A program made the translations under genes and the position numbers. A stretch of 64,000 bases of DNA from Candidatus Gastranaerophilales bacterium. GTDB lineage: Bacteria > Cyanobacteriota > Vampirovibrionia > Gastranaerophilales > Gastranaerophilaceae. The notes below the pieces were generated by a model. That model worked only from the letters and a program-made list of their open reading frames with translations. It was not told the DNA's origin and ran no database searches. The stretch lies in contig CALUXX010000004.1 in assembly GCA_944324845.1 (NCBI GenBank), forward strand, positions 1-64,000, written 5' to 3'. Below are positions 1-611 of the stretch, piece after piece. The first letter of the stretch is position 1, and every line of letters starts with the position of its first letter.

Positions 1-2
1 AA

Positions 3-62
3 GTGATGGAACAGAAGTTCGTGGATATTATAGAGCAATCTAAAATAATTTTAGATTTTTAA
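3..62 (+). CDS. possible C-terminal tail of a gene cut by the window edge
   Basis: Frame 3 stays open from the window edge to a TAA at 60-62 and encodes about 19 residues ending in IILDF. It is followed at once by a strong hairpin, as expected of a gene end. A second frame also ends nearby, at 43, so the choice of frame is uncertain. If the phased boxes at 178-283 mark the end of an integrated element, this could be the tail of its integrase, but nothing in so short a stretch proves that. Confidence 0.25.
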   Translation: MMEQKFVDIIEQSKIILDF

Positions 63-65
63 TAT

Positions 66-105
66 AAGAATAGAGCCATTATAAAAAGGCTCTATTCTTA
101 TTGAT
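66..105 (+). terminator. hairpin terminator
   Basis: A perfect 12-bp stem (AAGAATAGAGCC at 66-77 with its complement at 88-99) has a 10-nt loop and is followed by a T-rich stretch. It lies right after the possible gene end at 62 and would stop rightward transcription. The U-tract is interrupted, so its strength is uncertain. Confidence 0.55.
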
Positions 106-177
106 ATTTTCAAATTATATAAATATCTAAATCTCATTGATAATTTTGGGTATCCCAATTTGCAAGTAAAAATAAAA

Positions 178-283
178 TTGCACTTTTTTGCACTTTATTG
201 CACTGGACTTAACTTCAAACACAAAGCCGATTTTAGCCTAATGTGGTCTTAAAATTTTGCAAATGGAGTGCAAAAGAGTGCAA
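178..283. repeat. 10-bp-phased TTGCAC direct repeats with inverted copies
   Basis: TTGCAC occurs at 178-183, 188-193 and 198-203, each exactly one helical turn apart. The reverse complement GTGCAA occurs at 268-273 and 278-283, again 10 bp apart, and a degenerate GTGCAG lies at 299-304. Clusters of this kind on one face of the helix are typical of arm-type recombinase sites, replication-initiator iterons or cooperative repressor operators. The bound protein is not identifiable here. Confidence 0.6.
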
Positions 284-328
284 GAAAAGAGTACTTAAGT
301 GCAGCGGATTTTCGGTAGGGCGATGTGA

Positions 329-381
329 GGCTTGACGAGCAAGCCCGTAAGGTGTCGGGAAGCTGAGAACTTTCCGACACC
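329..381 (+). other. GC-rich tandem hairpins (possible structured RNA)
   Basis: Hairpin 1 pairs GGCTTG (329-334) with CAAGCC (340-345) across a 5-nt loop. Hairpin 2 pairs GGTGTCGGGAA (351-361) with TTTCCGACACC (371-381) with one G-U pair and a 9-nt loop. The block is far more GC-rich than its surroundings. I recognise no Rfam family. It could be a small RNA, a recombination site or part of a mobile-element end. The strand is assigned arbitrarily. Confidence 0.4.
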
Positions 382-504
382 CCGAATAATCCAAGACGAA
401 AAGACCCATACATCTCAATACTAAAAAACAGCCTCAATCGTGCTGTCTGTTTGATTTTTTACTAAATTTTCTCTGTCTCAATGTCCCAGAAACCTATTAA
501 TAAA

Positions 505-534
505 ATAAAGGACAGACTTAACATCTGTCCTTTA

Positions 535-535
<1 letters not shown>
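505..535 (-). terminator. terminator of tRNA-Ile
   Basis: On the minus strand the tRNA 3' CCA runs directly into AAAGGACAGA, a short loop, TCTGTCCTTT and a T-rich tail. This is a textbook intrinsic terminator. Confidence 0.8.

Positions 536-611
<76 letters not shown>

Follow-up and report, generated by a model that had tools for sequence, protein, structure and literature searches.

The window, the whole 64,000-nucleotide stretch analysed from a Candidatus Gastranaerophilales bacterium, starts at base 1 of contig C4 in a 19-contig assembly, and the DNA to its left is therefore missing. Near this edge, two facing sets of short boxes lie between the tail of a cargo gene and the 3′ end of a tRNA-Ile(GAT) gene (Table 1). 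Re-reading the positions bore out the 10-bp spacing of the TTGCAC and GTGCAA boxes reported in the preliminary description, and also the solitary state of the tRNA gene, which is the only one in the window and turns its 3′ end towards the array. The sixth box is present, as GTGCA(G), but is not degenerate as had been thought: a repeat of ~94 bp has been inserted behind the GTGCA of what was a GTGCAA box, and relatives carry GTGCAAGAAAAGACC at this point. Box density is beyond chance, with five exact boxes in 130 bp, whereas 200 first-order Markov simulations of the window never gave more than three (three in 10 runs; the usual value was two). In the window's own genome, TTGCACN4TTGCAC occurs in this array only (three matches; control, none). 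The conserved unit is larger than the stretch at 178-304 first singled out, running from ~131 to the tip at 499 and including spaced TCTCA boxes.

Table 1. Features at the left edge of the window (window coordinates)
Feature	Position	Strand	Remark
3′ tail of DUF6973 cargo gene (not an integrase)	2-43	+	94-97% DNA identity to L111, L112 and L206
Terminator-like hairpin past the cargo gene	66-99	.	direct reading of the sequence
Outer TCTCA box 1 (-67 position)	131-136	+	conserved in 86/145 arrays
Outer box 2 (-46 position)	152-157	+	degenerate in the window (ATCCCA); 50/145 arrays
Three TTGCAC boxes (starting at 178, 188, 198)	178-203	+	10-bp period
Variable centre	204-267	.	mean 0.99 bit/position vs 1.52 and 1.88 in the box blocks
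Two inverted boxes, GTGCAA (starting at 268, 278)	268-283	-	10-bp period; 70 bp from the last TTGCAC
Inverted box 3	299-303	-	interrupted by the inserted repeat
REP-like repeat inserted in the element end	304-397	.	borders approximate
TCTCA-type boxes 3-5	412-417, 432-437, 475-482	+	
Element tip, GTCCCAGAAACCTATTA	483-499	+	commonest tip form, 38/107 tips
Hairpin, probably the tRNA terminator	507-533	.	direct reading of the sequence
tRNA-Ile(GAT), target gene	535-611	-	3′ end towards the array

The repeat that breaks the last inverted box is palindromic and REP-like, and its relatives are numerous in some genomes of the genus. A query bearing it matched 13 places in G031 and 12 in G034; these are counts for the whole query, and the matches lie mostly within the repeat part.

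Within the genus, 26 of 46 genomes carried stretches of DNA related to the window. Across the family, the exact pattern TTGCACN4TTGCACN{50,75}GTGCAAN4GTGCAA occurred in 128 of 383 genomes, and the reversed control gave none among the matches listed. In a class-wide sample the pattern was found in 104 of 382 genomes, all of them in the window's family (~276 genomes), and in none of the 106 genomes of other families. Named records with the pattern were, among the matches listed, almost all Candidatus Gastranaerophilales, Melainabacteria or gut assemblies; matches in Flavobacterium piscis, Planctomycetes CA13 and UBA6244 were taken as chance because their spacing and flanks differ. Within the genomes searched, nearly all of them metagenome assemblies, the family of elements described below is confined to one Gastranaerophilales family. 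A phage origin of the array was considered and rejected, the three exact-pattern matches in viral_contigs being an unrelated prophage repeat. That prophage (L227-L229, IMG/VR) has phased TTTGCACCAGT repeats, direct and inverted, adjoining a primase-like gene. For initiator iterons, another early suggestion, nothing was found in support.

Array geometry is tightly held. In the 125 arrays that scored 120 or more against the profile and had a usable pair of boxes (lower-scoring arrays being left out), the gap between the inverted halves was exactly 70 bp in 97 and 68-71 bp in 123, and exact boxes stood at -10 in 123, at -20 in 108, at +10 in 122 and at +30/31 in 104. Information content over 106 arrays was 1.5-1.9 bits per position in the box blocks and 1.0 in the 64-bp centre. 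A second box type, [AG][TC]CTCA, occupies preferred positions on either side of the array (145 arrays).

As the preliminary description had led us to look for, arrays of this kind recur in many genomes beside tRNA genes. After deduplication there were 162, of which 97 lie within 1 kb of a tRNA or tmRNA gene; in all 97 that gene sits to the same side of the array and points its 3′ end at it, in a single orientation. These genes are of 11 kinds: 54 Ile, 9 Leu, 7 Met, 7 tmRNA, 6 Gly, 5 Ser, 3 Arg, 2 Asp, 2 Lys, 1 Val and 1 Tyr. The others comprise 53 with at least 1 kb of flank lacking a tRNA or tmRNA gene and 12 that reach a contig end; among the 53, many stand as the outer member of a tandem, and several directly adjoin a tRNA 3′ half not called by ARAGORN.

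Between array and tRNA gene lies a conserved tip, GTCCCAGAAACCTATTA in the window and GTCCTGAAAACCTATA and others elsewhere. Tips finish in TATTA or TATA, and some far ends start TGTAATTTAACA; no TGT...ACA end pair could be demonstrated among the tips and far ends compared. The distance from tip to tRNA was 25-433 bp (median 74, mostly 25-118; 107 tips), and the pattern used found no tip in 23 additional arrays. The window's tip lies outside the tRNA gene, 35 bp from the 3′ end of tRNA-Ile. Comparison across loci shows array and tip to be the constant end of an element, with one orientation throughout past tRNA and tmRNA 3′ ends. Elements often stand in tandem past a tRNA, with toxin-antitoxin units ~1.2 kb apart. 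New units lie on the tRNA side of resident ones and have cut some of their tips, at variable points; by-eye comparison of tandem junctions gave no constant target-site duplication.

Several loci show further features at the tip. In L122, L090, L106, L109 and L120, short tip remnants stand in series between tip and tRNA, as if later insertions had cut earlier elements at slightly differing distances. At L110 and L221 the tips abut the end of an apparent glycogen branching enzyme gene (identified by eye), with no tRNA. HigBA units such as L108 and L136 bear CTCAGTGGACTGGGACCATCAGCCCATA at the far end, which shares CAGTGGACT with the 3′ end of tRNA-Ile. A lone tip fragment near a contig end (G000:C3:184270-184352, L003) finishes in G/C homopolymers and is probably an assembly fault.

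Complete copies have, on the side of the array away from the tip, an operon encoding a transposase, a TniB-like ATPase, a protein that we call IntN and usually a helix-turn-helix protein, HTH145, all read away from the tRNA. Clustering of the ORFs to the left of the arrays recovered the transposase at 62 loci, the ATPase at 36, a ~184-205-aa protein at 34 and a ~145-aa HTH protein at 27; at other loci HigBA-like or XRE genes follow the array instead of the operon. Collected by IntN, 108 of 111 rows had the transposase and 109 the ATPase. Together the four proteins match Mu-transpos_C/phrog_310, TniB/phrog_296, the integrase SAM-like core-binding families and phrog_756. The transposase scored 52.5 bits against Mu-transpos_C (PF09299) and E 1.5e-82 against phrog_310. 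Its D, D and E residues were seen by eye; its profile touched TnsB in the PDB only at E 0.05, its sequence gave no meaningful PDB match, and its predicted model (pLDDT 35) was too poor for use. The ATPase matched TniB (PF05621) at 35.8 bits, over the cut-off, as well as phrog_296, and VchTnsC at E 1.1e-4. A profile search for TniQ (PF06527) was negative in 16 of 16 genomes of the window's family; the same model, applied phylum-wide, matched in 32 of 244 genomes, all outside that family. No TnsA endonuclease was found among the operon proteins named, and no Cas genes or guide array among the annotated ORFs of the element. One variant (L291:3135-4820, minus strand) is an in-frame transposase-IntN fusion of 562 aa that resembles an internal deletion and has an array and a tRNA-Gly beside it.

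Because complete copies place the array between the tip and the transposase operon, we consider it likely that Gastranaerophilales harbour a family of Tn7/Mu-like transposons and that the array belongs to their transposase-side end, the one nearer the tRNA. The preliminary description was right to place a site of a mobile element next to the 3′ end of a tRNA gene. The main rival, less probable but a serious one, is that the TTGCAC array has no role in transposition and serves only as an operator of the transposase operon, to which a repressor such as HTH145 binds, the true sites of the transposase being the TCTCA boxes. The palindromic array does lie directly before the transposase start, and in the single island whose far end was examined, that of G041, there is no TTGCAC cluster at that end. 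Against an operator, the array is intact by a strict test in 80 of 106 copies without an adjacent transposase versus 37 of 69 with one, a comparison biased because most transposase-less loci came via the exact box pattern and the loci were not deduplicated.

The G041 island (contig C19) runs from tRNA-Ile through tip, array, operon and cargo to an older element with its own array. Its cargo includes type I restriction-modification, HamAB (Hachiman), AbiJ-like, KAP/QatA-like and HipBA-like genes; read with the structural and lysis genes of Mu-like phages in mind, ten ORFs of the island were assigned to defence, to toxin-antitoxin systems or to no function. Toxin-antitoxin units spaced ~1.2 kb apart in tandem could also suggest an integron-like cassette array in which the box array is the recombination site. 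We regard this as extremely improbable, since full units possess a transposase operon, units finish in a conserved tip, integron integrases were not encountered, and new units cut resident tips at variable points; the idea was dropped once the operon and the tips emerged.

IntN is a ~184-aa tyrosine-integrase core-binding domain that matches Phage_int_SAM_3 (PF14659) above the cut-off. Its predicted model (pLDDT 79.8) had integrase core-binding domains as best PDB matches (probability 1.00, E 0.015-0.09). Both the Pfam scan and the predicted structure lack a catalytic domain, and the Pfam scan gave no zinc-finger family. IntN relatives were absent from viral_contigs and from plasmids. In a sample of 85 unique copies chosen by IntN rather than by boxes, some loci of which are shared with the array sample, the array lies upstream of IntN in 72; 63 copies have a tRNA within 5.5 kb, the nearest of which faces the element in every case, and none is near in the remaining 22.

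Islands and prophages with a tyrosine integrase recombine inside a tRNA gene and leave a copy of its 3′ part, the T-arm region being recognised. The preliminary description took the boxes for possible arm-type sites, which would make the end in the window attL or attR of such an element. The tRNA location and the integrase origin of IntN would suit that reading, as would tRNA 3′ halves broken near the anticodon loop beside the tips of L202, L093, L213, L066, L178 and L198, which suggest tyrosine-integrase elements on the same tRNAs. We nevertheless judge it very unlikely: IntN is without a catalytic domain, the constant partner is a DDE-type transposase with its ATPase, tips are located beyond the tRNA gene, and the element in the window is not bordered by a tRNA copy. 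The 3′ halves are probably att copies of separate tyrosine-integrase elements using the same tRNAs. The boxes might still be arm-type sites in a loose sense only, with the N-terminal domain of IntN as a candidate binder.

IntN apparently acts as the target selector of the transposon. Searching 383 family genomes gave matches in 226 at E ≤ 0.001, weak matches to other integrases included. Scores of at least 150 were obtained for 111 rows, 87 of them with a tRNA or 3′ half on the tip side, and removal of identical copies left 67 elements spanning 22 tRNA species (tmRNA counted as one). Across these 67, identity of the IntN C-terminal half was 0.78 between elements with the same target and 0.39 between those with different targets (AUC 0.927). 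The corresponding values were 0.88 and 0.85 for the transposase (AUC 0.641) and 0.87 and 0.82 for TniB (AUC 0.658); the N-terminal part of IntN had an AUC of 0.736, and HTH145, for which there were few pairs, gave 0.74 and 0.56 (AUC 0.696). When pairs with transposase identity above 0.9 were set aside, the nearest neighbour shared the target in 29.5 of 49 cases by the IntN C-half and in 3.5 of 49 by the transposase; label shuffles of the IntN test reached at most 0.32. Less favourably, target-label changes on trees fell only to 27 for IntN, from 37 for the transposase and 40 for TniB, the minimum possible being 21.

Such covariation might be a by-product of relatedness, if lineages stay at their birth tRNA while IntN evolves fast. 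Elements within one genus do share IntN and target, and IntN is the fastest-changing among the proteins compared. Against this stand pairs of elements from the same genome with nearly the same transposase: among loci whose genome could be paired, five of five pairs at different tRNAs had transposases 0.90-0.95 identical and IntN C-halves only 0.24-0.51 identical. Among pairs with transposase identity below 0.8, moreover, the nearest IntN shared the target in 18.1 of 21 cases and the nearest transposase in 4 of 21, and different isotypes inside a single IntN class have the T-arm, but not the anticodon arm, in common. We regard relatedness as an improbable account.

The T-arm comparison used 38 representatives (L290, which has no T-loop motif, was left out). 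For pairs of different isotype, T-arms were 0.81 identical when both belonged to one IntN class and 0.70 when they did not (0 of 2000 permutations), and T-stems 0.77 and 0.58 (0 of 2000). Anticodon arms gave 0.33 within and 0.34 between classes, and acceptors 0.44 and 0.39 (50 of 2000 permutations). Grouped by transposase class, T-arm identity at different isotypes was 0.71 within and 0.72 between. One IntN class has the GTGGGTTCGANTCCCACC T-arm in most of its tmRNA, Ser and Lys sites, and another the T-arm GCGAGTTCGAGYCTCGTC common to Gly and Asp; the Leu/Thr/Ala/Lys/Met class has only loose T-arm sharing. Exceptions to the matching are L283, with an Ile-class IntN (0.93-1.00) at tRNA-Arg, and also L250 and L240. 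Overall, these comparisons show that the target tRNA tracks the core-binding half of IntN, via the T-arm, and not the transposase.

Sister transposons in the same bacterial family have the transposase, TniB and a longer integrase-type protein in the IntN slot. In L310 this is a 357-aa protein with a Phage_integrase domain (PF00589, 66.9 bits) that, judged by eye against the family consensus, has lost catalytic Arg and His positions. In L308 it is a ~265-aa form in which Pfam no longer detects PF00589; L306, L307, L309 and L311 are alike by eye. The lengths of 357, ~265 and ~184 aa read as a series from an integrase to a bare core-binding domain. The stretches examined of the sister transposons contain no TTGCAC array, and the repeats before their transposase are unlike it. 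These array-less transposons also lack HTH145 and have a divergent HTH gene in its place, a coincidence that speaks for the operator alternative. L306-L311 carry AAA/OLD-like cargo.

In the mechanism that we propose for the transposon, IntN would bind the T-arm DNA of a tRNA gene, as the covariation and knowledge of its protein family suggest, and would load or recruit the TniB-like ATPase. The ATPase would bring the transposase with paired ends, and insertion would take place ~25-120 bp past the tRNA gene, leaving the gene whole. The TTGCAC and TCTCA boxes would form the protein-binding platform of the end, the TTGCAC part being occupied by the transposase or HTH145 (the conserved N-terminal domain of IntN is another candidate), with helix-phased contacts that face each other across 70 bp.

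Like Tn7-like elements, the transposon pairs a TnsB/MuA-type DDE transposase with a TnsC/TniB-type ATPase in an operon and inserts in a fixed orientation past a conserved gene; no TniQ/TnsD selector was found in the family genomes searched. Tn7 keeps a fixed spacing from its target gene, whereas the tip-tRNA distance is loose here. Insertion by phage Mu is almost random, and phage genes are part of its cargo-free genome. Resemblances to Mu are the Mu-transpos_C transposase, the MuB/TniB-like ATPase and an operon that starts near an end with putative binding sites; insertion directed to tRNA genes and the cargo examined, of defence and toxin-antitoxin genes, are unlike Mu. With tyrosine-integrase islands the transposon shares the T-arm region of tRNA genes as the recognised site, but it is a DDE-type system that inserts past the tRNA, without a full integrase and, at the window, without a 3′ duplication.

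Tn7-like and CAST elements of types I-B2 and I-D that home to tRNA genes through TnsD insert downstream of these genes (PMC10293859, PMC11406308), and CyCAST does so 30-33 nt past the tRNA end (PMC10293859, PMC11406308), near the 35 bp in the window. Unlike these systems, the window's family yielded no TnsD or TniQ. The closest parallel for the selector is TnsF of Tn6022, a catalytically dead derivative of a tyrosine recombinase that serves a transposase/ATPase system (Faure et al. 2023, PMC10293859); it has 498 aa, zinc fingers and tandem core-binding domains, works with TniQ and targets comM (PMC10293859). As in TnsF, the IntN family appears to co-opt the core-binding fold of tyrosine recombinases without an active catalytic site, with modular exchange of the selector. 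It differs in its size of ~184 aa, its sole core-binding domain, the absence of any TniQ found and its many tRNA targets in place of comM. The available review passages name only CRISPR guides and TnsD/TniQ as routes to tRNA sites (PMC10293859, PMC11406308), and in the literature covered, which takes in few subscription journals, so that a prior description is possible, no account was found of such a Gastranaerophilales element or of a selector with a core-binding domain only.

On balance we favour the view that this is a third natural route of homing to tRNA genes: a TniQ-free TnsB/TnsC-type system in which a stand-alone integrase core-binding domain reads the T-arm, is swapped as a module between near-identical transposons and has living intermediates from a full tyrosine integrase. 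One selector class would read a T-arm common to tmRNA, Ser, Lys and Arg genes, so that a single protein would open several safe sites. If true, a small swappable integrase domain would reveal how target selectors are recruited, with the intermediates extant in one family, and DNA insertion tools could profit from a ~184-aa selector able to direct large cargo to T-arm sequences of choice. The transposon would also explain the recurring islands past tRNA genes, with their stacks of defence and toxin-antitoxin genes, in gut Gastranaerophilales.

Several observations speak against the transposon-end reading: no TGT...ACA end pair and no target-site duplication emerged from the comparisons, the tip-tRNA distance is loose, some elements depart from selector matching, label changes on the trees drop only modestly with IntN, 22 of 85 IntN copies have no tRNA nearby, and the transposase, detected in 33 of 46 genomes of the genus, was not detected in the window's own. 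In the window, cargo occupies the place at which the transposase operon often starts. Contig C18 of the same assembly carries a terminal truncated array, followed by the apparent far end of a HipA-carrying unit (compared with L042); it may adjoin C4, and the gap between them could conceal a complete element. Because cargo replaces the operon start, no transposase was detected in the assembly and a gap between C18 and C4 is possible, this copy is best described as non-autonomous, as decayed or as severed by the gap. The duplicate of the tRNA-Ile 3′ end expected for an integrase element was absent from the genome (query 100-620, E ≤ 0.001). The gene tail at the left edge, which had been taken for a possible integrase end, is instead the tail of the DUF6973 cargo gene, with 94% DNA identity to L111, where the matching ORF has PF22322.
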